Source: a bacterium (lineage in GTDB: Bacteria > Zhuqueibacterota > Zhuqueibacteria > Zhuqueibacterales > Geothermadaptataceae). From it: DNA of 64,000 nt. Positions 22,290 through 62,900 of the stretch are shown in pieces; position 1 is the stretch's first letter, and each line of letters starts with the position of its first letter. Made by a program: the position numbers and the translations under genes. The stretch is from contig JAJRYV010000076.1 in NCBI GenBank assembly GCA_024275575.1, positions 62,001 to 126,000 of the forward strand. Direction: 5' to 3'. The notes under the pieces were generated by a model. It had not been told where the DNA came from. It was given only the letters and a program-made list of their open reading frames with translations, and searched no databases.

Positions 22290-23099
22290 ATGGCAAAAAT
22301 TATCGCAATTGCGAACCAGAAAGGCGGCGTCGGTAAAACGACGACAGCAGTCAATTTGTCGTCGAGTATAGCCGTTGCAGAGCATTCGGTGCTGACTCTC
22401 GACATTGATCCACAAGCGAATGCCACCAGCGGCCTGGGCATTGATTCGCGGGATACCAAACAGAGTATTTATGAAGTTCTCATCGAGAAAGCAGATATTA
22501 ATGGTGCGATTTGCAGTACGGAACTTGGCTATCTCGACCTGCTCCCCTCGCACAATCAACTTGCAGCCGCCGAAATAGAGCTGGTTGGCGAAATGTCTCG
22601 CGAGCATGTTTTAAAAGAAGCATTAAAGAGTTTAAAAAAAGATTATGAATATATATTCATCGATTGCCCGCCTTCCCTGGGATTGCTGACGCTAAATGCT
22701 TTGACTGCAGCAGATTCTGTGCTGATCCCGATTCAGTGCGAGTATTTTGCTCTGGAAGGTTTGAGTCAACTGTTAAATACCATTCGCCGGGTACAGAAAG
22801 TATTGAATCCCCGATTGGAAATTGAGGGGGTTCTGTTAACGATGTTTGACCCTCGTTTGAATTTAAGCCGGCAGGTGGCGGAAGATATCCGCAAGTTTTT
22901 TGATGATAAAGTATTTGAAACGGTTGTCGGCCGTAATGTCCGGTTGAGCGAGGCGCCGAGTTTTGGTAAACCGATCGTGTTATACGATGCCGTATCCAAG
23001 GGTTGTGAAAATTATATGAGTTTAGCAAAAGAGGTTTTACAAAATGGCGACCAAAAGACTGGGCAAGGGACTGTCAGCGCTCATACCGGACATTCCTGA
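22290..23099 (+). CDS. parA: Chromosome-partitioning ATPase ParA (Soj)
   Basis: This deviant Walker ATPase (269 residues) moves the ParB-parS complex over the nucleoid. It begins with [20 protein letters not shown], the deviant Walker A with both lysines. Further motifs are [32 protein letters not shown] and [15 protein letters not shown], as in chromosomal Soj. The ribosome-binding site AGGGAGA is 5 bases upstream. The last 56 bases overlap parB. Together they form the chromosomal partition pair, which often lies near the replication origin. Confidence 0.97.
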
Positions 23100-23922
23100 T
23101 GCACCCGCCGGCCAGCAGCACGTTGAAAACCTGTCAGAAATAAGCGTTTCAAATATTTCCCCCAATCCATTTCAGCCACGCACCGATTTTAACCCGGATG
23201 CGCTCGAAGAATTAAAGCAGTCCATCGCCGAAAAAGGCATTATTACCCCGATCACCGTGCGGCCTTTTGGCAACAATTATCAGCTCATCGCCGGAGAACG
23301 GCGTTTGCGCGCAGTTCAGGAACTTGGTCTCGAAAGAATCCCCGCTTTTGTTCTGCATGTTAACAACGATACCGACATGCTCGAACTGGCGCTCATCGAA
23401 AATATTCAGCGTGAAAACTTAAACCCCATTGAGGAAGCGGCCGCTTACCAGCGCTTACTCGATGAATGCCATCTGACACAGGAGGCCGTGGCGAAAAACG
23501 TCGGTAAAGACCGGGCGACCGTGGCAAATTTTTTACGTTTGCTCAAATTGCCCGCGCCAATTCAGCAAAGCGTAGTTAATGGTGAGTTGAGCGCCGGGCA
23601 TGCCCGTGCAATTCTCAGTTGTGATGATAATGTGTTAAAAGAGCAGTTGTGGAAAAAAATACTCAAAGAAAATTTGAGTGTACGGCAGGCTGAAAAATTT
23701 GTCAAATCATCGCGAACGCCAAAGAAAGATTCAGTTCGCAAGATCATTCCTGAACGACCGGCTGAAGTGACGGAACTGGAAGGTAAACTTCGTCAAAAAT
23801 TCGGTACACAGGTTCATGTGAATGTCAAAGGCGGGGCCGGCAATATTCAGGTTGAATTTTATTCCGAGAATGACTTTGATAGAATAGTCGATTTGTTGCT
23901 GCTCAGAAACGATGAATTATAG
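23044..23922 (+). CDS. parB: Chromosome-partitioning protein ParB (Spo0J)
   Basis: ParB is a CTP-dependent clamp that loads at parS. The 292-residue protein begins [15 protein letters not shown], then has [12 protein letters not shown], the GERR box in [15 protein letters not shown] near residue 81, and [17 protein letters not shown]. The helix-turn-helix is [20 protein letters not shown], and a C-terminal dimerisation domain ends the protein. It begins inside the parA 3' end. No site resembling the parS consensus (TGTTTCACGTGAAACA) was found in the window, although parS often lies close by. Confidence 0.97.
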
Positions 23923-23942
23923 ATTTATTATTCGAATTTTAA

Positions 23943-23971
23943 TTGACTTTTATTTATTGAAGTGATATACT
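23943..23971 (+). promoter_or_regulatory. Sigma-70-type promoter upstream of the M23 peptidase
   Basis: TTGACT, a 17-base spacer and TATACT lie in the gap after parB, each box matching the consensus in five of six positions with ideal spacing. The -10 ends 47 bases before the TTG start at 24019. It probably drives the peptidase and bactofilin genes and could also feed the ATP synthase genes. Confidence 0.75.
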
Positions 23972-24018
23972 TGGTGCTTCGTTTGAGCAGCCCAAAGTGT
24001 TCTGAAAGGTAATCAGCT

Positions 24019-24912
24019 TTGAAAAGCAAAGAGAAACGTACCATATCTGTGTTGTTGATTCCGGATGGTAACTCGGAGCCTTATTCCTTTCGTTTGAGCA
24101 TGGGAACCGTTAAATTTCTCATCATGCTCGCCGTCGCTGGAATTATTCACGCACTTCTCGGCGGTTTTGCATACTATAAATGGTTCAGCGTTGCCCAAAA
24201 AAATTCAGAGCTCATCGAAAACAATGTGCGCTTGTTAAAAGATAACCAGCGAATTTACCAGATTGAGCAGCAGGTTGAGGCCCACAGACGCATGCAAGAG
24301 CGTTTGTTAAACGCACTTGGCGTAAGCAAGAGCAGTTTGCAGGCGGCCTATCGAAATATCGGCGATTCAGGTTTGACGCCGTCGGAGTCTTACAGTATGG
24401 CAGCGCCTGATCATGAACCATCAGCACAGCCGAACGGGAACCGCAAGGCCGTTGTCAGCCACCCGGCCTGGCGAATTCAGCGGAAGAAGTCGTCGCATCG
24501 GTATACGCCCAATATTCCCACCGCTCTGCCGGTTGAAAAAGGGCATATTACTGATTTTTTCAGGCCCGAGATGCGTTCCTGGTTGTTTAGCAATCAGCAT
24601 TTCGGTATCGACATCGCCGGTCAGGCCGGCACCGATATTAAAGCGGCGGGGGACGGTATCGTGCTATTTGCGGGTTGGACTTCTGTGCTCGGCAATCTGA
24701 TCATCATTAGCCATGGTGATGAGATTTTTTCATTTTATGGGCACAATAACCGCATTCTGGTTGCCGAACGAACCCATGTTCGCAAAAATGATCCCATCGC
24801 TTTGTTGGGAAATTCGGGACAAAGCACCGGGCCGCATTTACATTTTGCGATCTGGAAAGACGGTGAGCCTGTTGACCCGAGGGGGTTTATACTGGAGTTT
24901 CAAACAGAATAA
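24019..24912 (+). CDS. M23 family (LytM-type) peptidase, membrane-anchored
   Basis: The 297-residue protein has a cytoplasmic N-terminus, one transmembrane helix (about 31-53) and a short coiled coil (about 58-95). After a variable linker comes a C-terminal M23 endopeptidase domain with the zinc motifs HFGIDIAG and GPHLHF intact. Such enzymes cut or bind peptidoglycan cross-links. A bactofilin follows 44 bases downstream, a common pair in which the peptidase is localised by a bactofilin scaffold to shape the cell (established in Helicobacter and other groups, inferred here). Start is TTG at 24019. Confidence 0.92.
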   Translation: MKSKEKRTISVLLIPDGNSEPYSFRLSMGTVKFLIMLAVAGIIHALLGGFAYYKWFSVAQKNSELIENNVRLLKDNQRIYQIEQQVEAHRRMQERLLNALGVSKSSLQAAYRNIGDSGLTPSESYSMAAPDHEPSAQPNGNRKAVVSHPAWRIQRKKSSHRYTPNIPTALPVEKGHITDFFRPEMRSWLFSNQHFGIDIAGQAGTDIKAAGDGIVLFAGWTSVLGNLIIISHGDEIFSFYGHNNRILVAERTHVRKNDPIALLGNSGQSTGPHLHFAIWKDGEPVDPRGFILEFQTE

Positions 24913-24956
24913 AAATAACAGCATTGCAGAAAGTCAACTTAGAAACGAGGTGAATA

Positions 24957-25394
24957 ATGCTGGGTAAAAAGGAAAGCGGAAGTATGGAACGTTCAGGGAA
25001 TTTAAACACAATAGTCGGCAAAGGGACCTTTTTTGAAGGCACTTTGAAAGTCGAAAGCAGCATTCGCATTGATGGAAAAGTGAAGGGTCGCATCGTCACC
25101 GCAGATTCTCTCACCGTCGGCAAAGATGGCGAGGTTGAAGGTGAAGTAACTGCAAAAAATGTAATTATCGGCGGCAAAGTACAGGGTAAAGTTCACTCGA
25201 GCGGAAAAATAGTCCTCGAAACCCATTCGCTGTTTCAGGGTGAATTGAAAACGGCTAAATTGGTCATCGAAGAGGGCGCTATATTTGAAGGCGTCTGCTC
25301 CATGGGGCAGGGAGAAGCATCCAGCTCCAACATGAGCGGCAAATCGTTGCTCAGCGCCCCGGTTGCGAAAAAAGTACCACTAAAACAAAGTTAA
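24957..25394 (+). CDS. Bactofilin (polymer-forming cytoskeletal protein)
   Basis: This 145-residue bactofilin has a beta-helix core. The repeat pattern is visible as NTIVGKGTFFEGTLKVESS, then IRIDGKVKGRI, VTADSLTVGKDGEVEGEV, NVIIGGKVQGKVHSSGKI and ELKTAKLVIEEGAIFEG, flanked by short disordered termini. Bactofilins polymerise without nucleotide and recruit cell-wall enzymes, in agreement with the M23 peptidase just upstream. GAGGTG precedes the ATG. The next gene is the first of the ATP synthase operon, 31 bases later. Confidence 0.95.
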   Translation: MLGKKESGSMERSGNLNTIVGKGTFFEGTLKVESSIRIDGKVKGRIVTADSLTVGKDGEVEGEVTAKNVIIGGKVQGKVHSSGKIVLETHSLFQGELKTAKLVIEEGAIFEGVCSMGQGEASSSNMSGKSLLSAPVAKKVPLKQS

Positions 25395-32505: not shown

Positions 32506-32511
32506 TTTGAG

Positions 32512-32545
32512 AAAGCCTTTTAGTTTTAAAAGGCTTTTCTTTTTC
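32512..32545 (+). terminator. Rho-independent terminator of the ATP synthase operon
   Basis: AAAGCCTTTTA and its complement TAAAAGGCTTT form an 11-base stem with a short loop. The stem is followed by TTCTTTTTC. It begins 7 bases after the atpC stop, so it closes the atp operon. Confidence 0.9.
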
Positions 32546-32714
32546 GATCAAATCTTCAAAACCCTTCTGTAATAACTCCTGTCTGCAGGTACACTATATT
32601 AATCGTTTGCCTGGTTTCAATGATGAATTCCCTGCTTTTTTGAAACCGTAAAACCAGTTTTGTTCTCCATTTGTTTTGTTTTTTATATTCCTTTTAGCCG
32701 GAATTATTTACCGC

Positions 32715-35700
32715 ATGAAATTTCAACAAATTAAACCTTTTTTAAAACTGCTATGGATTTGTTTCTGCGTTTTAAGTCTGGATGTTGCGGTCGCCCGGCA
32801 AAAGGCACCCGGGCCTAAAGTGCTGAAGGATAAGAACGACAAACTCATACAAATTGTCGATAATCTCAAAAATACGGCGAAACAAAGTGAAAACCCGGAT
32901 CACCTGTTGTTTTATATGGCAGATTATTATTTGCGACAAGATAAAATAAATATCTCCGATTCCAGCCAGGTTGACCCTTCGCAAAATTTGGCTATCGCAC
33001 AAAAACTCCTGTTAAAGATCATCACCGATTTTCCCGATGGGCAATTCGCCGATGATGCGGTTTATACTCTGGCTTATTTAATGGAGAAACGCAGCAGGAA
33101 AGAAGCACGCCAAAAGTATCTTGAATTGTTAAAACGTTATCCCGCCAGTATGTATAAAGCTCATGTATTCCTGCGCCTCGGTGAATTGGCGATGCAACAG
33201 GGCAATAGCGTACAAGCGTTGCAATACTTTCAAAACAGTCTTACCTCCGCTCCGGAAAATGTCAAGTTGCAGGCATTATTTCAAGCCGGCATCTGCCGGC
33301 TTATGCAAAATGCACCTGACGCTGCCGCCCGTGATTTTATCCGCTTTCTAATTTTGGCCGAAGAAACCCGCCTGCCTGCAGCGTTTTCAGTATTGAATTT
33401 AAAGCAACAGGCGAGTTCATTGCTGGCGGATTGTTTTCTCAAATCAGGTGGGATCAGTGCAGCGGATTATTTGCTGAATCGTTTAAATCAACCGGTCTGG
33501 GGCGGCGAGTTTCTCTGGCGCCTTGCAGCCAAATACTTGCACGCCGACAACAACGGACAGTTAGCGTTGAAAGCTTATGATTTGTTATTGCTGCGCTTTC
33601 CAGAGTTCGAACAAATTGAAATAGCCCGCATAAACCGCATTGCTGTTCTGCTGCAAACAGGGAATATCGAGAGCGCCTTTTTTGCGCTTAATAAGTTCGT
33701 GAGCGTTTCCCGATCGCCGCTTCTTCAGCAGAAGGCGGTTGCACCTGTCGGGGAAAACTTGTTAGCAGAGAAAATTGAAAATCTCTGGCATCAGGCGCTC
33801 GATAAATTGCTGGAACTCGCCAAAAAAAGCCATGATGCAACCCAATATCAAAAGTTTATTGTTGAGGCAGATAATTTTCTCAGCTATTTTGAAACTGTAC
33901 CACGTTCCGTGCTTGTGCATTGGAACAGGGCGCTGGCTCTCGATAGAATTCTCAAAAAAAAGGACGCTGCCTTCTCTGCTTATTTGCAAATGTCCATCTT
34001 GTTTCCGCAACATGAGCTCAGCCGGCAGGCAGCGGAATATACAATTTCCCTGGCTGAAATCGCAATGAGCACTTCCCAGTCTCCATTGTTTGTGAAAAAG
34101 TTCAACAGCTCACTTGTTGACAACCCGGCAGCTGCGGTTTATATCGATGCACCCGTTTACAGCAGCGGCGAACGAAAGTTTCTCTCGGCCGTTGAGAATT
34201 ATGCCCGGCTTTTCCCCGGCGAAAACGAGACGGCAGAATATTTGTTTGCCGCGGCAAATCTCTGTTTTCAGCATCGTGATTTTCAAAAAGCAATTGCGTT
34301 ATTCGAAGCGTTTTTGCAGCAATTTCCACAGCACAAAAAAGCTGCTTTGGCCAGTTACAAGAACTTGCAGAGTTATTTTTCATCACACGATTATGGCAGA
34401 GCAAAATCAAGTGCGCAACAACTTGCGATCACTGGCAATGTGAGAATTCGCCGGGCGGCGATGCGTTACAGTGAAGAAATTGATAAGCTGCAGCAGGCAT
34501 CAGCACAGATCGTATCATGGCGCACCGATGCTGGAATTTCGCAGCGTGGGGCGCTTGTGCTCTATCTGGCCGGCGTAAAAATGATGCAGGTAAAACAATA
34601 TGACGATGCCCGGAAAACTTATCAAAAATTACTAGCAACAATCCCTGATTTTCGTTACCGGGAGAGCTGCTTGCATTATTTGGCGGCAGCTTGTTTTCAC
34701 CTTGGCGATTTTACCGGGGCTGCACAATATTTTCAACAATTGGCTGCTGTCGATACCATCGAAGTTCAGAAAAAAAACAACTTGTTCCGGGCTGCACAAC
34801 TTTATCAGGTGGCGCGAAATTACCCTGCTCAGCTTGCTGTTTATGAGAAATTTCTCGATGTTTTCCCTCATACTGCGGAATCGGAAAATGTGCTGTATGA
34901 GATGGCGTTGCTCAGTGAAAAAAACGGCGACATGGATGCAGCAATTCAAATAAAAGCTGAATACTACCAACAATATCCCAACTCTCGACGCCATATTGCT
35001 TACTTGCTGTGTTCCGTCGATAGTTTGCGGCAACAGGGAAATCTCCAGACTGCACAACAAAGATTGCAGCGATCCCTCGAATTAATTCGTCAGGCGGGTG
35101 ACGGATATCATGATCTGAGGGCGGAGGTTTTGTTCCTGCTGAGTGAAATAAAATTGGAAAAATTTCTCTCTAATGAATTTAGGAAAAATAACACTGAGGG
35201 AAATATTGACAGCAAACCGCAACAAAAGATACTGCAGGAATTGGTTCGGAATTATACTGAAATCAGAAATATGCATTCTTCGTATGCAAGGGAAGCACAG
35301 TATAGAATTGCTTTCTGTTATGAAAAATACGCGGACGGCTTCAACGAGATGAGCCGGCAGATTTTTTCTGAAAAAGAGCCGGTTAATCGATTGCCTGAAA
35401 AGAAAAATCTGGCAGAAAGTTTATACCAGCGCGCAGCAGATGCTTATCTCGGCGTTGCACAAATGGAAATTCCCTCAACCACGCAGAAGAACGATGTCCG
35501 TTTTATCCGGCTTTCCGGGGATGCTGTTAAAAACGCTGTTCTCTGTCTCGCAAAAGCTGCGGATTTGAATTTCAAAATGACGAAATTTCTGCTGGCGTCA
35601 CCGATTCCTGTTTCCGGTGACGAGGTCACTGTGCTGGCTTATGAAAACCAAATGCTCAATAGAATAATTTTGCCGCAAATCGACAAAGCCCTGCGCTTCA

Positions 35701-36815
35701 GTCATCGTGCATGCAGCTTAAGCGATTCGCTGCATCTCGGCAATGCAGTGGAGCAACACGCCCAATCCGAACATTTTACCATCCATACCTTTGCGCTTGA
35801 ATTGCTGCAGCAGCAAATGACGAGATTTATGCGCCATTATACACAGACCTGGCTCGATGTTTTTTCTTATGAAGTGCAAGAAGACAAAGCAGTAAATTTT
35901 ATCGATGAAGATCTGACCATTTCTTTAAATGTTTTGAAAGATTTGTATTCACATCCGCAGGTATTATCTTGTGCAAATCAACAAAAGCTGATTCTGAAGA
36001 AATATGATTTTTACATGGGCAGCGTTGAGAAGCTTGATTCATTGTATACTTATGTTTCGCAAGCATTTATTGAACTCAGACAAAGCGGTAATACCCGGCA
36101 TGAAGCGGTCAATATGGCGGCAGACCAGCTGTTGGAATTACAGGACTTTCTCATTAAAATATCAGATGCGACACTGCGTCATATTGTGAAAAACGGCTTA
36201 TCGTCGCAGGAGGTGCAAAAGCTGCAGGAAAAATTAATAAAACTCTGTCCGCAAAAATATGCACCTATTTTTGGATTTCGCCTGACCGAGAGAAAAATAG
36301 TCACCGATGAGAGCTGGCTGTTACATAGCGCTAAAGAAAGCGAATGTGATCGAGGAATGGGTAGTGAAATATCGATTTTAGCACAACCTGCGACTTCTGT
36401 CGCATTCTGGGGTTCGAATGCAAAACAGATTCGAACAGATCCGCAACACATCAAACTTGCCCTGACAAATCACTCTGTCGATGGTGGCAAACCATCATCT
36501 TGCAAAGGTTTGCCGGTTGATCATGTGGCTCATTTTCGGAAAACGATCCGCTTGTGTTCCAATCCGTTGCGCGCCATCGCAAAAATTGCCACGGTGCCCC
36601 CTTTTACTCTTTTTGTAAATGGAAAAAAGGTAAAACCTTTCGCTTCAATGCAAGCCGAAGATGATTTGGTCGGTATCGAGTTGACAAATTATTTGCGCAA
36701 GGGTAAAAATAGTATATGTGTTCATAAAACGATAGCAGCGGCAACGCAGGGCTGGGCGATGTTGCTAACCATTCAGCAGGCTGAAAAATGGCCAGGGTTA
36801 AGCCAAAATGAATAA
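32715..36815 (+). CDS. Giant exported TPR-repeat protein of the ExbB/ExbD/AgmX module
   Basis: The 1366-residue protein starts at ATG 32715 (the frame is open to 32676). It has a signal sequence (hydrophobic 8-22, likely cleaved near AVARQ) and then tens of helical TPR-like repeats (for example QFADDAVYTLAYLMEKR, SMYKAHVFLRLGELAMQQGN and YDDARKTYQKLLATIPDFRY) over about 60-950. A long helical region follows. The last 150 residues look like a jelly-roll with FTLFVNGKKVKPF and LTNYLRKGKNSI, the pattern of galactose-binding-like domains. It is predicted periplasmic. It overlaps the next gene by 8 bases and heads a coupled operon with a proton channel. Function unknown. Confidence 0.82.
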   Translation: MKFQQIKPFLKLLWICFCVLSLDVAVARQKAPGPKVLKDKNDKLIQIVDNLKNTAKQSENPDHLLFYMADYYLRQDKINISDSSQVDPSQNLAIAQKLLLKIITDFPDGQFADDAVYTLAYLMEKRSRKEARQKYLELLKRYPASMYKAHVFLRLGELAMQQGNSVQALQYFQNSLTSAPENVKLQALFQAGICRLMQNAPDAAARDFIRFLILAEETRLPAAFSVLNLKQQASSLLADCFLKSGGISAADYLLNRLNQPVWGGEFLWRLAAKYLHADNNGQLALKAYDLLLLRFPEFEQIEIARINRIAVLLQTGNIESAFFALNKFVSVSRSPLLQQKAVAPVGENLLAEKIENLWHQALDKLLELAKKSHDATQYQKFIVEADNFLSYFETVPRSVLVHWNRALALDRILKKKDAAFSAYLQMSILFPQHELSRQAAEYTISLAEIAMSTSQSPLFVKKFNSSLVDNPAAAVYIDAPVYSSGERKFLSAVENYARLFPGENETAEYLFAAANLCFQHRDFQKAIALFEAFLQQFPQHKKAALASYKNLQSYFSSHDYGRAKSSAQQLAITGNVRIRRAAMRYSEEIDKLQQASAQIVSWRTDAGISQRGALVLYLAGVKMMQVKQYDDARKTYQKLLATIPDFRYRESCLHYLAAACFHLGDFTGAAQYFQQLAAVDTIEVQKKNNLFRAAQLYQVARNYPAQLAVYEKFLDVFPHTAESENVLYEMALLSEKNGDMDAAIQIKAEYYQQYPNSRRHIAYLLCSVDSLRQQGNLQTAQQRLQRSLELIRQAGDGYHDLRAEVLFLLSEIKLEKFLSNEFRKNNTEGNIDSKPQQKILQELVRNYTEIRNMHSSYAREAQYRIAFCYEKYADGFNEMSRQIFSEKEPVNRLPEKKNLAESLYQRAADAYLGVAQMEIPSTTQKNDVRFIRLSGDAVKNAVLCLAKAADLNFKMTKFLLASPIPVSGDEVTVLAYENQMLNRIILPQIDKALRFSHRACSLSDSLHLGNAVEQHAQSEHFTIHTFALELLQQQMTRFMRHYTQTWLDVFSYEVQEDKAVNFIDEDLTISLNVLKDLYSHPQVLSCANQQKLILKKYDFYMGSVEKLDSLYTYVSQAFIELRQSGNTRHEAVNMAADQLLELQDFLIKISDATLRHIVKNGLSSQEVQKLQEKLIKLCPQKYAPIFGFRLTERKIVTDESWLLHSAKESECDRGMGSEISILAQPATSVAFWGSNAKQIRTDPQHIKLALTNHSVDGGKPSSCKGLPVDHVAHFRKTIRLCSNPLRAIAKIATVPPFTLFVNGKKVKPFASMQAEDDLVGIELTNYLRKGKNSICVHKTIAAATQGWAMLLTIQQAEKWPGLSQNE

Positions 36816-37188
36816 AAATATTATACGATATGTCCTGACATTGCTGCTGGTTTTTTTGTGGCAAACCGATATGCCGGCACAATCGAATGAGGAACAGAAG
36901 CCTGGTCTGGTGAAGCGGGATTCTGTCTCCTCCGGCGAGATTGATCTGGGTGAGATAAGCGTTGAAGTAAATGAAATTAATTATCAGGTACGATTTCCGC
37001 GAATACGGGTTAATTATGCGCCTGCGCTGTCGAAAAAGGATTCGCTGCTTCTGCAGCGAGCCGGGTATGGCTTTATGCTTAAACGCACTTATTTTGTTCC
37101 AGCAGCAGGTTCAGAAAAACAAGATGTTCAAGCAGGCAAAGCTGCTGGGAATCAAATTAACAACCAGTCGAAAACGGGTAATAAATGA
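36808..37188 (+). CDS. Small exported protein of unknown function in the ExbB/ExbD module
   Basis: The 126-residue product has a signal peptide (hydrophobic 8-19, likely cut after MPAQS). A short charged region and a beta-rich core (EIDLGEISVEVNEINYQVRF, then PRIRVNYAPALSKKDSLLLQ) follow, and the C-terminus is polar. I do not recognise the family. Translational coupling on both sides (8-base overlap upstream, 4-base overlap with ExbB downstream) makes it a likely fixed component of the module, perhaps a periplasmic or outer-membrane adaptor. Confidence 0.72.
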   Translation: MNKNIIRYVLTLLLVFLWQTDMPAQSNEEQKPGLVKRDSVSSGEIDLGEISVEVNEINYQVRFPRIRVNYAPALSKKDSLLLQRAGYGFMLKRTYFVPAAGSEKQDVQAGKAAGNQINNQSKTGNK

Positions 37189-37835
37189 GTGAAATCTTGG
37201 TCGGATTCTCGAGTGAATCCAGTGCATTTTTTTATATGTGGGTTCTCGCAGCACTTGCGGCTATCATGGTCGCGATCGCTGTTGAACGGTCCTGGTATAT
37301 TATTGTTCGTGCGAATATTAATGCGCCCGGGTTTATGCAGAAAATCCGTTCTCTTGTGCATGAGGGCGATTATCAATCTGCCTTAAACTTATGCGATGCA
37401 GCGCCGGAGAAAGCACTGCCGCGGGTTATTGCCGCCGGACTTCGGCCCATGGCACGCGGAGGGCAGCTCGATTTTCGCACCATTCAGAATTCTGTTGATG
37501 AGGGCACGCTTGAAGTTATCCCAAAATTGCAGGAACGCACGGGTTTCTTAGCGATGATCGCCAATGTTGCTACGCTCATTGGCCTCATGGGCACAATCTG
37601 GGGGCTCATCACCGCTTTTCGTTCCGTTTCAATTATCGGCATCGATGCAGCGGAAAAATCGCGACTGCTTGCCGATGGTATCGGCACGGCGATGAATACC
37701 ACTCTGATGGGGCTGGCGATTGCCATTCCGGCGATTTTGATCTATACCTACTTGCACAACAAAACGATTCGCATCATCGATGAAATTGATGAACATACTG
37801 TTAAATTGATTAATTTAATTACCGGAAATCAATAA
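37185..37835 (+). CDS. MotA/TolQ/ExbB proton channel family protein
   Basis: The 216-residue protein has three membrane helices (about 14-33, 123-148 and 167-190) and a cytoplasmic loop. The conserved family pattern is visible as LATLIGLMGTIWGLITAF (near 127-145) and GIGTAMNTTLMGLAIAIPAI (near 164-183), including the Thr residues lining the channel. With ExbD-type partners it forms an inner-membrane motor that uses the proton gradient to drive periplasmic work. It starts inside the end of the preceding gene. Confidence 0.93.
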   Translation: MSEILVGFSSESSAFFYMWVLAALAAIMVAIAVERSWYIIVRANINAPGFMQKIRSLVHEGDYQSALNLCDAAPEKALPRVIAAGLRPMARGGQLDFRTIQNSVDEGTLEVIPKLQERTGFLAMIANVATLIGLMGTIWGLITAFRSVSIIGIDAAEKSRLLADGIGTAMNTTLMGLAIAIPAILIYTYLHNKTIRIIDEIDEHTVKLINLITGNQ

Positions 37836-37848
37836 ATAACAGGTAATA

Positions 37849-38379
37849 ATGGCTTATCGTCCATCACAACGCCGAAGTTTTGAAATCGAACCGACGGAAC
37901 CAAATCTAACGCCAATTATGAATTTGATGGTGGTGTTGATTCCGCTTCTGTTATCTTCGGCAGAATTCGTCAAGTTGGGTGTGATCGATCTCAACTTGCC
38001 GCCGGCAGCCGGCCCCTTGCAAGCATCGGTGAAGTTGCCCCGGGAAGGAACGAGAAGTCTCGATCTTTTGTTGATGATTAGCGAAACGCAGTTCGTCGTA
38101 TCCTGTTCTTTACCGCAGGCTGTTTTTCGCAATAAACAACAGCTCGTTATCCTCTGGGATGCAAAAGAGGCACTGATGAAGTTGCAGGATTTGCTCTATT
38201 TTATCAAACAGAAAACACCGAATTATTATCGGAACAGGAACCGAATACGCATTCAGGCATCGACAGGTGTAAAATACCAGTTGATCATCGATGTTATCGA
38301 AACAGCGAGAACGATCAAACGAAAGAACAGCAAAACTTTACTTTTCCCTGTGGTGCAATTGAGCGCCGGGGTTTTGTGA
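37849..38379 (+). CDS. ExbD/TolR-like protein with Asn in place of the proton-carrying Asp
   Basis: The 176-residue protein has the ExbD layout: a short cytoplasmic N-terminus, one membrane helix (about 22-40, NLTPIMNLMVVLIPLLL) and a periplasmic domain. In ExbD/TolR/MotB proteins the helix carries an Asp (Asp25 in E. coli ExbD) that is needed for proton flow. Here that place is Asn25. The periplasmic part has an LLLMISETQFVVS strand and a longer C-terminus than usual. It lies 13 bases after ExbB. The second ExbD retains Asp. Confidence 0.85.
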   Translation: MAYRPSQRRSFEIEPTEPNLTPIMNLMVVLIPLLLSSAEFVKLGVIDLNLPPAAGPLQASVKLPREGTRSLDLLLMISETQFVVSCSLPQAVFRNKQQLVILWDAKEALMKLQDLLYFIKQKTPNYYRNRNRIRIQASTGVKYQLIIDVIETARTIKRKNSKTLLFPVVQLSAGVL

Positions 38380-38429
38380 TCATGGTTTGTAAATTCGCAA
38401 ACCCCAAAACAGAAAACAGATTCAATTAA

Positions 38430-38933
38430 ATGGCTTTCAAACCGTCCAAAATTAAAAAACATAATATCCATCGGGTGCAGGCAAAGCTGAGCCTGAACTC
38501 GATGATGGATATTTTTATTATCATTTTGCTTTTTTTATTAAAAACATATTCGGCGCAAGGTCACCTGTTCTCACATCTGCACGACCTGCAACTGCCGGTT
38601 TCACAACAGGAGAATCAGCCAGATCGGGGGCTGGAGCTGGTGGTTTCGCCGGAAATGATTTATTTCGAAAATATGCCGGTTGTCCCCCTGGTTTCCGTGA
38701 TGTCAAATGCACCAGAGGTTGTACAAAATGGGATAATTCTGCCTCTCAAAAAAACCCTGGAAGGATATTCGAGCGAGGGACGGCTGCTCGAAGAAAGATA
38801 TGGCATTAGATTTTCCGGCGCTCTTTCCGTGAAAGCCGACCGCAACCTCGATTATGCTGAGCTTGTAAAAATAATGCAGACATGCGGTAACGCCGGATTT
38901 TCCAATTTACATCTTGTGGTTTTAAAAAATTGA
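38430..38933 (+). CDS. ExbD/TolR-like protein with intact membrane Asp
   Basis: The 167-residue protein has a basic cytoplasmic N-terminus, one membrane helix with the motif LNSMMDIFIIILLFLLK (Asp27 in the proton-carrying position) and a periplasmic domain of about 125 residues ending in a FSNLHLVVLK strand. It is paralogous to the preceding gene but diverged. Two ExbDs per motor fit the known ExbD dimer within an ExbB pentamer, so a heterodimer is plausible. Confidence 0.88.
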   Translation: MAFKPSKIKKHNIHRVQAKLSLNSMMDIFIIILLFLLKTYSAQGHLFSHLHDLQLPVSQQENQPDRGLELVVSPEMIYFENMPVVPLVSVMSNAPEVVQNGIILPLKKTLEGYSSEGRLLEERYGIRFSGALSVKADRNLDYAELVKIMQTCGNAGFSNLHLVVLKN

Positions 38934-38946
38934 TTGAAGGACTTGA

Positions 38947-39723
38947 ATGAAATCACAGTATTTGCATTTTTTAATTGTCGTTTTGGTCTGCTTCTCTCCA
39001 CTGATTATGGGGTTTTGGCTCCTGTTTTCTGCTATCTCAGCACAGGAGCAGAACCAACCGCCGGCAGCAGACCCGATCATTTCGGAGGCTGTTACTGAGC
39101 GCAATGCTCCGTTGTTTTTTCGCAGCGGTCAAATTAATGCAAATGCTGATATCCTGCAAGCTCCGGCAAGATCATCCCTAATCGATTCAGCTTCGACAAA
39201 GGTGGACGCCCGAACCGTTTTAGCAAATCAACTGCGCAATGAAGTGCGTTCGCAAAACGTTCTCGGTGTTTTGACCTCGGGAGGAGAGGAGTATTTGGAT
39301 ATGGGGAATGGTTATTGGCAATCAAAAACCAGCGGCGATGAAGTTATCGGGGAGCTTTACCGGCAGCCGGAAAATATCAGGTTGCAAGGAAATTATACTA
39401 TCATCTATTCTCCTCCCGGTATGAGTTTCTCGAACATCGAAGCCGTCATTCGACGCAATGTGATGAGGTTACAGTCGGTTTTAGTCGAATCTCGTACTTC
39501 CGGCACACAGCAGAAAGTCCACTTTGTGTTAGATGTTTTCCTCGATGAAAACGCTTACACCTCTGGTATAGCCATGGTCAGTTCTTCAGCGTCGATTGGA
39601 TTTCTGCTCGATGATATTTCCAAAGTGGTTGAAAATTGGGGAAAATGGGGGCAAATACCGGCAGGAGTTCAATCGGCAAAAATTCGCCTGTCTTTTGATT
39701 TTCAACCCAGCGTTGAGCCTTGA
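38947..39723 (+). CDS. AgmX/PglI C-terminal-domain (TonB-like) protein
   Basis: The 258-residue protein has an N-terminal membrane anchor (about 7-32) and a disordered region. The C-terminal domain (about 155-258) resembles the AgmX/PglI or TonB-type transducer domain: SNIEAVIRRNVMRLQSVLVE, then KVHFVLDVFLDENA and VENWGKWGQIPAGVQSAKI. Proteins of this type link ExbB/ExbD motors to outer-membrane or periplasmic partners, and AgmX is linked to adventurous gliding in Myxococcus. It is the last gene of the six-gene cluster, with 13 bases to the upstream gene. Assignment to the family is by pattern. Confidence 0.75.
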   Translation: MKSQYLHFLIVVLVCFSPLIMGFWLLFSAISAQEQNQPPAADPIISEAVTERNAPLFFRSGQINANADILQAPARSSLIDSASTKVDARTVLANQLRNEVRSQNVLGVLTSGGEEYLDMGNGYWQSKTSGDEVIGELYRQPENIRLQGNYTIIYSPPGMSFSNIEAVIRRNVMRLQSVLVESRTSGTQQKVHFVLDVFLDENAYTSGIAMVSSSASIGFLLDDISKVVENWGKWGQIPAGVQSAKIRLSFDFQPSVEP

Positions 39724-41677: not shown

Positions 41678-41706
41678 TTGACAAAGAGCGATTTTATCGT
41701 TATAAT
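41678..41706 (+). promoter_or_regulatory. Perfect sigma-70 consensus promoter for the lipoprotein-LysM genes
   Basis: TTGACA (41678-41683), a 17-base spacer and TATAAT (41701-41706) form an exact match to the consensus, directly after aspS. Transcription would start near 41713, giving a leader of about 118 bases before the lipoprotein start. This is the strongest promoter seen in the window. Confidence 0.93.
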
Positions 41707-41763
41707 ATCGCAAATTTCTTTGACGTTAATCTATAAAAAACAACCCCATCTGTTAGAAAAATA

Positions 41764-41805
41764 TCTTCACCTAGTATACAAAAAAAATAATAGATCTTGT
41801 GAAGA
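41764..41805 (+). promoter_or_regulatory. Possible leader hairpin upstream of the lipoprotein gene
   Basis: In the leader, TCTTCAC (41764-41770) can pair with GTGAAGA (41799-41805). Bases CACCT (41768-41772) can also pair with AGGTG of the Shine-Dalgarno (41818-41822). Two alternative pairings could therefore open or close the ribosome site. The case is weak because the stems are short. Confidence 0.3.
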
Positions 41806-41830
41806 AGAACCGGAAGGAGGTGTAACAATT

Positions 41831-42100
41831 ATGCAAATGACACCCACAAAATTATCCAATTGGGTGCTCGCAGCGGCTTTTGCTGTGTCATTGGTACTCG
41901 CAGGTTGTGGAGGTGGTCCAAACGCCGAGCAACTACAGCTTCTCGAAGAAACAAAACAGGCGGCGCTTTCCGCTGAGCAGAAATTGCAGCAGTGTGAAAG
42001 TGGCAAAGCAAGTGCATCCGATCAACTTGAGCAGAAAAAACGCGATCTCCAAAAAGCGCAAGATGAGATGGCATCTGTGAAAAGTCGGTTAGGCATGTAG
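41831..42100 (+). CDS. Small Lpp-like coiled-coil outer-membrane lipoprotein
   Basis: The 89-residue protein has a signal sequence ending in a lipobox LVLAGC (Cys near residue 25). The remaining 65 residues form one helix rich in Ala, Gln, Glu and Lys (heptad-like AEQLQLLEETKQAALSAEQ), resembling the small lipoproteins of the Lpp or alanine-zipper kind. The frame is open upstream to 41678. ATG 41831 is chosen because it follows a near-perfect Shine-Dalgarno, GGAAGGAGGTG, and gives a proper signal peptide. The perfect promoter and this site predict very high expression. The LysM protein follows 43 bases later. Confidence 0.85.
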   Translation: MQMTPTKLSNWVLAAAFAVSLVLAGCGGGPNAEQLQLLEETKQAALSAEQKLQQCESGKASASDQLEQKKRDLQKAQDEMASVKSRLGM

Positions 42101-42143
42101 TTAATGATCAATTCAAGCGTAAAAAAGGTTTAAGGAGCTAGGC

Positions 42144-42977
42144 ATGAAATTTACAAAGATTCTCTTCGCAGGAATCTTCGCCTTTTCATTAGCTACTTCT
42201 GCTGTTGCCCAGGATCAGGAAATGACCATGGATGAGTATAAAGCTCAACTTGCAGAATGGCAACAACGGGAAGCAGATGCAAATGCTGCGATTACGAAAT
42301 GCGAAGGTGAAACCGGCACTTTGAAAGATGAAGTCGCCAGTCTTGACGGACAAGTTAAAAATACTTGGGATGAAATTTATAATCTCGTCGGCGGAAAAGA
42401 CGCGGTCGACGCTTATAAAGGTGAACTCGATGCACTCGAAGCGGAAGTTGACGGGCTGGCAGCATTGTCACCCGAAGAACTTTTCAAACGCCGTAAAGAA
42501 ATCGATGCATTGGAAGAAAAACTGAACGGCATGAAAGATAACCCGGTTTATGCATTGACGGAAATGCAAAATAAAGTTGCTTCTATCGAAGGCAAGATCG
42601 CTCGTCTGCGCGACAGCATGCCGGCAGCAATGTACGATGAATACACCGTTGCACGTGGTGATTATCTCTGGAAAATCGCCAAAAGTGACGATATTTATGG
42701 TGATCCTTTCCAGTGGGTACGAATTTATTCGTACAACCGTGATCAGATTAAGAACCCCGATATGATCTTTCCTGACCAGATTTTTAAAATTCAACGCGGC
42801 GTCGGTCCTGCGGAATATCTGGTGAAAAAAGGTGATTATCTATACAAAATTGCCGGTAACGAAGAGGTTTTGGGCGATCCGACAAAATGGACTCAGATTT
42901 ATGAGCAGAATAAAAATGTTGTCGGTGACGATCCAAATATGATCTATCCTTACCAGGTTTTGAAACTGCCGGAATAA
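42144..42977 (+). CDS. Exported protein with coiled coil and two LysM domains
   Basis: The 277-residue protein has a signal peptide (1-22, cut after AVAQ) and a Glu/Ala/Lys-rich helical region (about 25-160). Two LysM-type peptidoglycan-binding domains follow near 165-215 and 225-277 (YTVARGDYLWKIAKSDDIYG and YLVKKGDYLYKIAGNEEVLG). Together with the lipoprotein upstream it may attach the envelope layers to peptidoglycan, an inference from domains and operon. AAGGAG precedes the ATG, and the gene ends in two terminators. Confidence 0.87.
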   Translation: MKFTKILFAGIFAFSLATSAVAQDQEMTMDEYKAQLAEWQQREADANAAITKCEGETGTLKDEVASLDGQVKNTWDEIYNLVGGKDAVDAYKGELDALEAEVDGLAALSPEELFKRRKEIDALEEKLNGMKDNPVYALTEMQNKVASIEGKIARLRDSMPAAMYDEYTVARGDYLWKIAKSDDIYGDPFQWVRIYSYNRDQIKNPDMIFPDQIFKIQRGVGPAEYLVKKGDYLYKIAGNEEVLGDPTKWTQIYEQNKNVVGDDPNMIYPYQVLKLPE

Positions 42978-56454: not shown

Positions 56455-56917
56455 TATTTTATCAAAAAAGTTTTGAATTTATTCATTTCTAAGCAGTTGA
56501 ATATACAAAACAAGAGCACCTTCTTCAATCGGAAATATGAAATAATCTAAAAGCACGAATTGCGGGAACTGCAAAATGCCGATAAGCGTATGAGATGGGT
56601 GTATACCGGGAAAATATTTTTTCTTGAAATTCTGTTGTTAAATATTTATTTTCCGAATTGTTTAAAGCCATTAACCCAAATGATAAACCGGAGAAACCTA
56701 TCGAGTCTTTGTTACACGAATAATCTATCCTGAAATATTGATACTGTTTTCGAGAAAAATCGGGGCCTTTTGCAGAAAACGAGATCGTTTTAACTGCCGG
56801 AAGTTTTAATAGAGTCAGATAAGTTTACAGCTGTTTTTCCGGCAAAACTCTACATGTAGTGTTTTTTGGGATTGATTAAATCCGGTTTTGTCGGCATTTA
56901 AGGGTTTATGGCTTAAT
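56455..56917. other. Divergent intergenic region between lptF and sprA
   Basis: These 463 bases have no coding potential that I can support. TTGAAA (56624-56629) and TATTTT (56647-56652), 17 bases apart, could be a weak sigma-70-type promoter toward sprA. A TGCCGGA/TCCGGCA inverted pair around 56797-56845 is loose. The region should contain both divergent promoters. No riboswitch or tRNA is recognised. Confidence 0.5.
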
Positions 56918-59900
56918 ATGAAAAAAAGTTTTTTAATTCCGGCAGCAATCTGCCTTCTCCATCTTTTTGTTTCCCCCAATACCGGATCCGGTCTTTTGGC
57001 GCAAATCATTCCCGGTTTCCAGGAAAGCGATAGCGGATTCGTCTGTTTTGATATCCGTTTTTTCAACGATCCCCGTGTTCCATTGCAGAACGAAACCCGT
57101 TATCTCGGCATGTCACTTGCGGGTTATCTCGGCGGATTTGGTTATAATAAACCGGGCAGTATTCAGCACAAGGCTCAGCTCGACAGCAGCGGCCAATTCA
57201 TCACGATTACACAATCGATCAAAGGTGTTCCAGTGCGCCTGCCACGGATAATTTCCCTCGGAGATTATAACCGAATTGAAAGCCGGCGCCGTATCGCAGA
57301 AAAATGGCGGGTTGCGGTGATGACCAATGTGCTCGAAGGACCAGCCGGGCGCCGGCGCGGCCCCGGTGGTTTGAACATCTCCATCCCGGTTCCCATCAAA
57401 AGCAAAACCTTTCAGAAAATTTTTGGTGGTGATAAGGTCGGTTTGAACGTACAGGGCGATATCAGCATCAAAGGAGGTTTTCGCAACGAAGACCGAAGCC
57501 AGGCGAAAACCACGCTGGCGCAGGGGTCGAATACCAATTTTAAAATGAACCAGACACAGCGATTCACCGTCACCGGAAAAATCGGTGAAAAAGTAACCGT
57601 CAATGTGGATCAGGATTCCGAGCGTTCGTTTGATTTTGATAATAATCTTAAATTGAATTATAAGGGATTTGATGACGAAATAATCGAGAGCATTGAGGCT
57701 GGCAATATTTCACTGGCGTTGCCGGGAACCCGTTTTGTTCGCGCCAGCGGTGGCAGCGCCGGTTTATTCGGCATCAAAACCAAGATTAAACTTGCTGACT
57801 TGAATCTGACTATCGTTGCCAGTCAGGAAAAAGGGGAAAGCAGCCAGTTGAGCATCAATGGCGGCGCTGCGAGCAACAAAACGACGATCCGGGATTTGGA
57901 TTTTAAAGAATTTACTTACTTTTTTCTCGATTCGAGCTACCGTGAGAATTATCAAAATTATTCGTCGAAATGGCTGCGCTATGCAATCGATGACCCCATC
58001 AAACGCATTTATGTTTATAAATCGACGACGGACTTAAAACGTGACGGCCTGGTTAAAGGCTGGGCGTTGCCCGACCCCTCGGTGAAAAGCGATACCAGTA
58101 AATCCGGCTCCAAGGAATATTTCCCCGGCAGTTTTATTCAGCTCGATTCGGAATCCGACTATTTTATCGAGACTGATATGGGATATATATACATGAGCCA
58201 GTCAGTGCAAAATGGTGAAGTTCTCGCTGTTGCATATGAACTTGAAAGCGGTCAAAAAATCGGCGATGTAGATTATGATCCTTTCAGCTCCGCCCCCATT
58301 TTTTTAAAAATACTCAAAACGCAAAGTCCGCACCCGGATGATGAATTCACCTGGGATTTGGCCTGGAAGAATGTTTATAGCCTCGGTAGCCGCAATATCC
58401 CACAGGAAGGATTCAAGCTGCGCATTCTTTTTCAGAGTTCCACCGGGCCGGAGCCCAATGCATCCACCGGTGAAACCTTTCTCCGCATTTTTGGGCTCGA
58501 TAATTACGATGCAAATGGCGATGCCAAACCCGATGATAAAATTGATATCGATCCCTATTTGATAAATTTATCACGTGGTGAACTGATTTTTCCCCATTTG
58601 GAACCGTTTAATCCGACCAAGCTTGGAGGCAATTTAAACGAAGAATCGACTCTGCCTGAAGATTTGCGCATCCCGGAAATATACGATCTCGAACGCACTG
58701 CGGTTGACCGCCGTTCAAAAACTAAATTTATTATCGAAGTTGAATCGCAAAACAAAAGTTCCACTTACCAGCTCGGTTTTAATGTCATCGAGAATTCGGA
58801 AAAAGTGATTGCCAACGGTCGTGAGTTGCAGCGCGGTATCGGTTATACGATCGAATACATGTCGGGAACCCTGACCATTCTCGACGAGCAGGCCACGACG
58901 CCGAATGCGAATCTGGATATTACCTACGAACGCAACCAGTTTTTTCAGCTCGATAAAAAAACCATGCTCGGCGCCCGTGCCGAATACAGATTCAGCCCTG
59001 ATCATTTTTTTGGTGCGACTTTCATGTACCTGAATGAACGAACATTGGATCAGAAGGTACGCGTCGGCAAAGGCCCAATGCGCAATATGATCTGGGATGT
59101 TAACGGTTCGTTCAAATTCAAGCCTAATTTCCTCACGCGTGCCCTCGATGCATTGCCACTCTTGCGCGCTGAAGCGGATTCCCGGCTTAATTTTGAGGGG
59201 GAGATCGCCCAGATTTTGCCCAACCCCAACACCTTGAACAATTCCAGCACCGGCGATAATCAGGGTGTGGCCTATATCGATGATTTTGAAGGTTCTGAAC
59301 GCCCAACTTCTCTCGGCATCACCCGAAAAGGCTGGACCGATGCTTCGGCGCCGGTAGCCATTCAGAGTCTTTTTAGCGACAAGCAGTATGCGATGGCGCA
59401 ACGCGGCAGGCTGATCTGGTACAATCCTTATACCCGCGTCCGCATCAATGATATTTGGCCCGAACGCGAAGTCAACAGTCAGACCGGTCAGCTCACTGAT
59501 ATTCTGATCATGGAGTTTACGCCTGCTGCATATCAGGACCGTGCTCTTGCCGAAAGTTGGAATGGTGTGATGCGCGCCCTGTCTACAGGTTATTTTAATC
59601 AAACGGAAAGCAAATTCCTCGAGGTCACCGTTGCCGGTGAAACCGGGGTTTTAAATATTGATCTTGGCATGATCTCTGAAGATGTGATTCCCAACGGCAA
59701 GCTGGATTCTGAAGATATCCCGGTTGGCGGTGTGCGCCTCGGCACCCTGGATGAGGGCGAAGACATCGGTCTTGATGGTATGCAAGGCAGCGATACCGGC
59801 GAAAATCCCGATTTCTGGGATATCAATGGCAATGGCACGCGTGAGGAATGGGAGCCCATCAGCAACGATGATTGGTCTTATTCGCAAAACTCTGCAAATT

Positions 59901-62900
59901 ACAGCCGTGTCAACGGTACGGAAAACAGCAAAAACGACGGCAGTCAGGTGCCGGATACTGAAGACCTGAACCGTAATAATGTCGTCGATCTCGTCAATAG
60001 TTATTTTTCCTATAAAATTAATCTCGATGATGAAAACCATCCCTATTTTGTCGGCTATACAAACCCCAACCAATCGAATGTCCGTAACCGCTATCGCGTT
60101 TATCAGATTCCGCTGAAAATTCTGTCGGGAGCTAATGATACGGAATATCGCTCCCTACAGGGAAAGCCGGATCTCTCGAATGTGCAATATGCCCGCTTGT
60201 GGATGACTGGCGTTGACACCACGAAAACAGTACGCATCAAAATTGCGGAAATCAACCTGACCGGTAATGACTGGAAGGAGCAGGGCGTTTCAGCAAGTGA
60301 GGATTTTGCTTCCTATCAACCGGCGGATGGCTCTACGATCGATGATGAGACGGTCTCGGTTTCCGTGCTTAATACGCATGAAAACCCGGATAATTATATC
60401 GAGCCGCCGGGGGTTTCCGGCGTCGTCGACCGTATCACCAAAGCGCGGGCAAAAGAACAGGCGCTGGTGCTCACTGTCAAAGATTTACAGCCGGGAGAAA
60501 ACGGGCTGGTGAAAAAAACTTTACTGCAACCGCAGGACTATATTTACTACAAAAAGCTGAAGATGTTTGTCGGCGCCTTTGGTGAAGGGTTGCCGCAGGA
60601 CACGGCGCAGGTCAGCCCAATCGAATTTTTTATCCGTTTCGGCAACGATGAAAATAATTTTTATGAAATCCGCGAACCGCTTTTTGGCCCCACAGCCTAT
60701 ACTCCAGTGGCGACAGAGATGTGGCATGAAGCCAATGAGCTTGATATCGAGTTATTCGAGCTTACCAGCATGAAACTGATGGGCGAGGGTGTGCATCCGC
60801 TGACGGCAGATTCCACGGAGCAGGTTTATGTAAAAAATGTAGGAAAAAAACAATACCGTTTTAAAGGCATTCCATCGATTTCGAATATTCGTATCATCTG
60901 GGCGGGAATCGTCAATAAATCGACGAGCCCATGGAACGGCCAGGTTTGGCTGAATGAGTTGCGTCTGTCCAACATTGAAAAGGAAAAAGGCATCGCTATG
61001 CGGGCAAATGTGGATTTTGGGCTATCCGACCTGTTTTCGGTCAATGCTGAAATCAATCGTAAGGATGCTGATTTTCACAATGTCGGCGAACGTTTCGGCA
61101 AAAAGAGCACGACGCAAGCCTATTCTGTGAACACCAGCTTGAAAGTGGATAAACTATTGCCCCAGAGTTGGGGGTTGAGCATTCCGGTCAGTGCAAATTA
61201 CTCAAAATCGAAGACGACGCCCAAATATGACCCATCTCTCGGTGATATTATACTGGAAGATTCGGGTGACGAAACACTCATTGAAGACAAGCTGACCCGC
61301 AGTGAGAACAAAGGGTTCAATATTTCCGTCAGCAAGGCAAAGAAATCACGCAAATTTTATATTAAATATACTCTCGATGCATTAAAGGGCAAAATCAACC
61401 ACACCCGTACAACACAAACGGGTCCGACGCTGAAACTGGGCAACGCACGCAACTGGGCCGGAAATTTAAATTACAACATCACTTTCGGACAAAAAACTTA
61501 TTTTAACCCGCTGAAATTTTTGAAAAATCTGCCGCTGGTGGGAAAATACAGTGAAACGAAATTGTATTATCTGCCGCGTTCTCTCTCTGCCGGCGCCAGC
61601 GGTGCTTCAAAATGGTCGGAACGGCAGACGCGAACACTGCAGGGTACTGATGGGAAATATACCTCTACCAGTACCAGAACGTTGAACCGCAATGCCAATA
61701 TGAATCTGAAATTGACAGATAAACTCTCGGGAAATATCAGCCGTACCTGGTTGGGGGATGTGCGTGGCGGCTGGTTGGAGTCATTCACGGCACAGAACGA
61801 TACCAGTCTCTACATCGACCGGTCAAAGTCGCAAAATTTCAAACTGGATTTCGCTCCGAATATTTTTAGCTTTTTTTCCCCATCCCTGAGCTATACGGCA
61901 AGTTATAAATTCTCCAACAACCCGGCGCAGAAAGAACGGGCGCTGAGCGCCTCGACAAATAATGTCCGCACCGTCTCGGGAACATTGAAATTGACACAGT
62001 TATTCAAGCGAAAGTCGTCAAAAACGAAAGGCCGAAAACCACCTTCTCAAAGAAAAAAACCGGGGCGGCGCCGACCGGGGCAAGCGCCTGAAGAAAACGA
62101 AAAGGGAAAGAAAGGTGATGAGCAGAAAAAAGAGCGCCCTAATCCGTTAAAGTTGTTAAAATCACTGATCACTAATATCGGTAGCGTCAAAGATATCAAG
62201 ATAAATTATACGGATCGCAACAACTTTACCAATACTGCCGTGATCACCGAGCCTGGTAACAAATACAGGTTTGGTTTTGTTGATAAAGCTTTTATCCGGG
62301 CAATCCCCACTGTCGCAACAGCTACCGGTAATCTGGTCAATATCAATAGTACAAAAACACTAAATATGTCGACAGGTTTTAAAATAGCGAAACATATTGA
62401 CATTGCATTGAAATATGATTTAAATGATCAAACGACGCAAAATACCCAGATAACCGGGAATTATTCATCTTCTGCTTTGCGCATTAAAAACGACAGGGGT
62501 GATACCAATGATGTTTTTATCCCGTTTCCTGATATAACATTGACCTGGAATGGTCTGGAAAAAATCGGCCCACTGAAAAAGTGGTTCAAAACGATCAACC
62601 TGAGCTCCAACTTCACTTTTAAATCAACGACTTATTGGCGCGAGCAAAAAGAATATAAGACCAAGGATGATTATCAGCTCAGCCAGCGGCCGCGGGTCCG
62701 TGCATCTTTGACGTTGAAAAACGGTATCAATTCAAATTTTGCCATGAATCATAGCGTCGGTGAAGGGCAGACTTATAACCAGAATGGAGATGTGGTTTTG
62801 CTAAATACAGGGGACCGAAACACTACGGATGATATCAGCTTTTCTGCGTCATACAGCAAACGCAAGGGTTTTTCACTGCCCTTTCCATTTCTGAAAAACA

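Follow-up and report, generated by a model that had tools for sequence, protein, structure and literature searches.

The 64,000-nucleotide stretch of bacterial DNA analysed here (the window) carries between positions 32715 and 39723 a six-gene locus that, on sequence comparison, appears to encode a relative of the Agl-Glt core complex and not an undescribed machine. The core complex as defined by Luciano et al. in 2011 consists of GltC, GltD, GltE, GltG, AglR, AglQ and AglS (PMC3169522), and the locus is placed with it because of family matches to GltG, GltD, GltF and GltC and the corresponding clusters in Myxococcota. The machine is ancient and widely shared among bacteria, and is powered by the proton gradient to exert a pushing or pulling force on the envelope. 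The locus is regarded with moderate confidence as a diverged, Nfs-related version of this core, in which a motor with a single Asp would drive a TonB-like arm on a periplasmic complex of TPR and sugar-binding parts. A preliminary description of the stretch had recognized a proton-energised envelope module that is neither Ton nor Tol-Pal and resembles gliding machinery, and this part stands. Its further suggestions, that the resemblance is only partial and that the machine may be undescribed, are superseded: the locus matches a described Glt-like core complex (PMC3169522) and all six proteins have counterparts in the Agl-Glt family, namely GltD, GltF, AglR, the AglQ/S pair and GltG, to which relatives add GltC.

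All six ORFs were recovered on the forward strand, as tightly linked as the preliminary description had it. The putative gltD gene (32715–36815), whose ATG at 32715 gives a protein of 1366 aa, although the ORF itself opens at a TTG at 32676, encodes an exported giant TPR protein (Pfam TPR, 3.8e-18). It overlaps by 8 bases the gene for a small, diverged GltF-like exported protein of 126 aa (36808–37188), which in turn overlaps by 4 bases that for a 216-aa motor subunit of the AglR/TolQ/ExbB type (37185–37835; MotA_ExbB PF01618, 4.5e-25). After a gap of 13 bases comes the first ExbD, D1, in the AglQ position (37849–38379; PF02472, 1.1e-8), after a gap of 50 the second, D2, in the AglS position (38430–38933; PF02472, 1.6e-12), and after a further gap of 13 a GltG/AgmX-type force transducer of 258 aa (38947–39723).

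Within the KSB1/Calditrichota group, the phylum of the window, all 40 loci that were fetched have the order TPR, small protein, ExbB, ExbD, ExbD, AgmX-like protein, the small and the last gene being assigned partly by position; no small ORF was assigned in two loci of the phylum set (L064 and L073). With ExbB as query and counts read from the table, 64 of the 82 phylum genomes have an orthologue at 56–90% identity, clearly set apart from the next paralogue, at ∼40% identity. The full locus in relatives usually comprises seven genes, GltC-GltD-GltF-AglR-D1-D2-GltG, and this order from GltC to GltG is found, whole or in part, in records of Fibrobacterota, Myxococcota, Raymondbacteria, Latescibacterota, Sabulitectum, Oligoflexia and Deferrisomatales; the Myxococcota clusters include some with GltD, GltF and GltG in that order. 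Because the arrangement recurs throughout the phylum set and in other phyla, the six genes form a real, co-conserved unit and not a chance association. The separation of the TPR and small-protein genes from ExbB/ExbD in relatives, an outcome named beforehand as counting against the linkage, was not seen.

In many genomes of the phylum the module is preceded by parA, parB, an M23 peptidase gene, a bactofilin-like gene and the ATP synthase genes, and is followed by aspS. As this neighbourhood is the same in much of the phylum, it suggests vertical inheritance and not a niche add-on. The known range of the Agl-Glt core, together with a GltF-like part, grows to include a phylum-wide system that was apparently inherited vertically. 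In the window, parA, parB and the M23 peptidase and bactofilin-like genes lie at 22290–25394, before the ATP synthase operon. A search for a conserved outer-membrane partner upstream of the module returned these same genes, parAB, M23 peptidase, bactofilin-like and ATP synthase. Downstream of aspS, at 41678–42977, are a gene for a small coiled-coil lipoprotein-like product and one for a LysM protein, which recur downstream in several relatives.

The TPR protein appears from profile comparison to be GltD. Against a GltD HMM derived from Myxococcota, it scores 171 bits in a single-domain match that spans 73% of the profile, and its orthologues score 412–533 bits over 85–91%. Other TPR proteins, which served as control, yield only fragments, with 68–70 bits per domain over 30%, and rule out ordinary TPR similarity as the source of the match. 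The terminal jelly-roll anticipated for this exported 1366-residue protein is supported by structure prediction. In an AlphaFold2 model of its C-terminal 251 aa, helices are followed by a beta sandwich (pLDDT 78, with core strands at about 85–94), and the jelly-roll is placed at 36507–36785. The top 50 Foldseek matches listed for it are GH2-type glycosidases and rhamnosidases (alpha-L-rhamnosidases), and PF02837 is matched in one GltD orthologue (L060; E 1.3e-4). A profile of the jelly-roll matches the GltDs of the module found in the window, hereafter module A, and one Raymondbacteria protein; it has no match among the GltDs of Myxococcota or of module B, a paralogous module described below. 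The predicted C-terminal end of GltD at this locus is thus a sugar-binding jelly-roll of the glycosidase type, a feature that looks new.

Neither the small exported protein nor the AgmX-like protein of the window has a significant match of its own in Pfam and family searches, and both were identified through relatives. The small protein keeps its position in relatives. Profile-profile comparison connects module-A small proteins to their module-B homologues (97.5) and the latter to GltF of Myxococcota (probability 96.7; the score of 58 compares with at most 12.4 after shuffling). By this route through module B, the small protein is probably a diverged, GltF-like one.

The last gene appears to encode a diverged GltG. 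Among orthologues in its position, 23 of 25 match NF033768, the AgmX/PglI C-terminal domain, and NF033760, GltG; the former lies over its cut-off in the member shown and the latter reaches 7.5e-41 at best, below its full-length cut-off. The initial label ‘AgmX-like’ was therefore right, but by way of the relatives: the proteins of the window and of its congener, Calditrichaeota CLD2, match neither family and are both alignment outliers. The window protein, which is without the Cys pair present in relatives, was placed as GltG only by position, topology and fold. Its AlphaFold2 model has a transmembrane helix, a disordered linker and a C-terminal beta-alpha-beta-beta-alpha-beta domain (about 39382–39708, pLDDT about 76–96), and the folds nearest to this domain in Foldseek include the C-terminal domains of FusB, TonB and TolA, with weak E-values. 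An FHA domain is found in one Myxococcota GltG but is absent from the GltG of modules A and B.

Another large gene, encoding a TPR protein where tested, lies directly upstream of the module in 37 fetched relatives, and two of three such proteins tested match the GltC family NF033756 (E 5.5e-8 and 5.9e-9). In the sister species CLD2 (L122), the order is atpC, a gene for a 599-aa exported TPR protein, gltD. At the equivalent site in the window (32506–32714, without strand) atpC directly precedes gltD, and a search of the window's genome with the CLD2 upstream gene gave no match. The GltC-like gene has been lost from this locus; one is present in the second module of the genome. The comparison with CLD2 also reveals uneven rates of change. 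ExbB, D1 and D2 are 90%, 60% and 63% identical between the two species and neighbouring genes mostly 75–92%, while the TPR protein, the small protein and GltG reach only 27%, 26% and 27%; TPR identity within other genera is 69–89%. On these identities the force arm and the periplasmic parts seem to evolve unusually fast in the window's genus and, given this together with the loss of GltC, the output of the machine may be altered there.

The most distinctive property of the motor is the asymmetry of its two axle proteins. In D1 the motif TPIMNLMVV has Asn25 (codon 37921–37923, forward strand) aligned with the proton-carrying Asp of ExbD/TolR, so that Asp27 of D2 (38508–38510, forward strand) is the only candidate proton-carrying Asp of the pair. 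Asn occupies this position of D1 in 41 of 41 module-A proteins, and D2 has Asp in all 41. In wider sets spanning several phyla, in which some loci are further module-A ones, D2 retains Asp at 149 of 149 loci. Among these loci, which are related and do not constitute independent cases (the tree requires at least two changes of state), so that a Fisher test on them yields no valid probability, D1 has Asn, Ser, Gly or Cys in place of Asp in 110 of the 111 with an adjacent GltG; it has Asp in 34 of the 38 that have no adjacent GltG, most of the Asp-type loci being seen to only ∼1.5 kb downstream. In Myxococcota, motors of the AglRQS type mostly carry an Asp in each axle protein. The tree places D1 and D2 in clades of their own (support 87 and 85). 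D1 is fused to ExbB in a protein of about 430 aa in ten loci, mostly of Fibrobacterota, and a separate ExbB lies upstream of the fusion where the flank is long enough, as in L102, L109 and L110. Besides these three, the fusions include L262–L266, L268 and others; they occur in Fibrobacterota, Raymondbacteria and a few other loci.

The substitution D28N in Myxococcus AglQ blocks proton-driven movement (PMC3858216). If D1 corresponds to AglQ, as gene order would imply, a change that paralyses AglRQS is its natural state. The absence of Asp from D1 of nearly all GltG-linked relatives suggests a lopsided motor. No description of an Asp/Asn axle pair was found in the literature searched, which left out most subscription papers, and as far as that literature goes the asymmetry looks new. 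The chances appear about even that GltG-linked Agl-Glt cores constitute a class of 5:2 proton motors that are one-sided by nature, with an obligate D1-D2 heterodimer in which only D2 binds protons and with D1 fused to an extra ExbB in some lineages. Were this so, the two-Asp motor of gliding myxobacteria would be the exception, and a single proton site would halve the number of power strokes per turn, or yield pulls instead of steady rotation. A review of 5:2 motors treats the choice between homodimers and heterodimers for AglQ and AglS as unsettled (PMC9389320). Because D1 lacks Asp in almost every GltG-linked locus and D2 has it in every locus, the conserved pair with one Asp-less partner provides evidence that the two form a heterodimer, and it can serve as a natural test of the number of proton sites needed.

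Module B, a second, paralogous Agl-Glt-like module, is located on another contig of the window's genome (L082, G000:C67:24000-33000). It is complete, with GltC (453 aa), GltD (961 aa), GltF (124 aa), ExbB, D1 with Asn, D2 and GltG (451 aa). The gene directly upstream encodes an exported protein of 351 aa, which may reside in the outer membrane. ExbB of the second-module score tier occurs in 59 of 82 genomes, as counted by hand with context checked in some. The genome also contains two other ExbB loci with TonB_C proteins (L079 and L080).

The Luciano core has in common with the present locus a TolQ-type motor, two TolR-type partners, a TonB/AgmX transducer and exported TPR proteins, as well as the clustering of the genes in one region in non-gliding bacteria. 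The differences are that the phylum lies outside that study, that a GltF-like gene belongs to the cluster and that no GltE was found at the locus, no further gene lying between GltD and the motor; moreover, GltD ends in the predicted jelly-roll, D1 has Asn for Asp and a linked GltC is missing in the window's genome. In Myxococcus xanthus, the Agl-Glt gliding machine and the Agl-Nfs spore-coat machine have parts homologous to those of the locus, namely AglR, the axle pair, GltD/NfsD, GltF and GltG/NfsG; AglR binds GltG/NfsG and Agl-Nfs carries the spore-coat glycan (PMC3858216). GltG is encoded away from the motor genes in myxobacteria but next to them here, and AglQ requires the Asp that D1 naturally replaces with Asn. 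The TPR-tolQ-tolR-tolR-vWA loci of the PVC group resemble the present one in having a TPR gene, one TolQ, two unlike TolR proteins and a transducer of TonB topology, but that transducer ends in a vWA domain and not in an AgmX/TonB-type domain (Williams-Jones 2025, PMC12204202). With Tol-Pal and Ton the locus shares the TolQ/ExbB plus TolR/ExbD motor and a TonB-like transducer fold; it differs in having two axle proteins, one with Asp, and no TolB, Pal or TonB-dependent receptor. In place of the TonB, receptor and plain ExbB/ExbD pair of a Ton system there are genes for a TPR protein, a GltF-like protein and a transducer of the AgmX type. To our knowledge, no function of Agl-Glt has been demonstrated in non-gliding bacteria.

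As the best explanation of the part identities, of the order of the genes, of the asymmetry between Asn and Asp and of the folds predicted, we infer the following motor mechanism and cargo. An AglR/ExbB pentamer would surround one D1 and one D2 axle protein, with the single Asp of D2 serving as the proton path and D1, with its Asn, as a structural partner that stays unprotonated. The resulting rotation or force would be transmitted to the TonB-like GltG arm, which, with GltF, would act on the exported GltD TPR scaffold, joined by GltC in relatives. The jelly-roll of GltD may bind a glycan, for instance peptidoglycan, LPS or a surface polysaccharide, and the machine would then move or hold the glycan-bound complex as an envelope function. 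Resemblance of fold is what points to glycan binding and to this cargo; the putative sugar-binding end of GltD makes the glycan-cargo idea testable.

Among the other readings, an outer-membrane stabilising and constriction machine that substitutes for Tol-Pal in the phylum is unlikely, even though the neighbourhood is a conserved housekeeping one and the adjacent genes for a lipoprotein and a LysM protein hint at tethering of the envelope. The window's genome has no TolB above the family cut-off, with none in the window neighbourhood either, and no OmpA-domain ORF of Pal size, the smallest, of 218 and 261 aa, both being motB genes. These absences favour a substitute, but diverged TolB or Pal could escape a search made in this one genome; in addition, the locus itself is without TolB or Pal, its motor, GltG and GltF are of Agl-Glt type and module A is absent from some genomes of the phylum. 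Decay or repurposing of the module in the window's genus is improbable: the low identity of the TPR protein, small protein and GltG to those of the congener CLD2 and the loss of GltC and of the GltG Cys pair would fit it, but six intact ORFs and the conserved motor parts are unlike decay.

A role in driving gliding motility, as Agl-Glt has in Myxococcus, is also distinctly improbable. The core parts are the same, and the two copies in the genome recall the duplicated Glt/Nfs clusters of Myxococcus (PMC3169522). The core alone, however, is insufficient for gliding (Luciano et al., PMC3169522), the motor departs from the two-Asp type prevalent in Myxococcota, the genome has flagellar genes and none of GltA, GltB, GltH, GltI, GltJ and GltK, among which are the outer-membrane Glt genes, is present at the locus. 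The CglE family had no match in the window's genome, and the controls were likewise without match. Finally, the machine of the preliminary description, unrelated to Agl-Glt and assembled from generic ExbB, ExbD and TPR parts, is hardly credible; the small and AgmX-like proteins of the window lack family matches of their own, as it would lead one to expect, but the orthologues mark every part as Glt-like and the profile results contradict it. It was dropped after the GltG, GltD and GltF tests, in favour of the diverged Agl-Glt core.

Several further genes were noted in the course of the analysis. Two of the ExbB loci in the genome (L079 and L084; G000:C39 and G000:C76) are accompanied by exported TPR proteins about 1000 aa long, and a TonB_C protein is present at one of them. 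The flagellar genes include two motA/motB-like pairs (L081 and L083). In the window itself, an exported protein of 2092 aa is encoded at 56888–63166 beside apparent lptF and lptG genes on the opposite strand.
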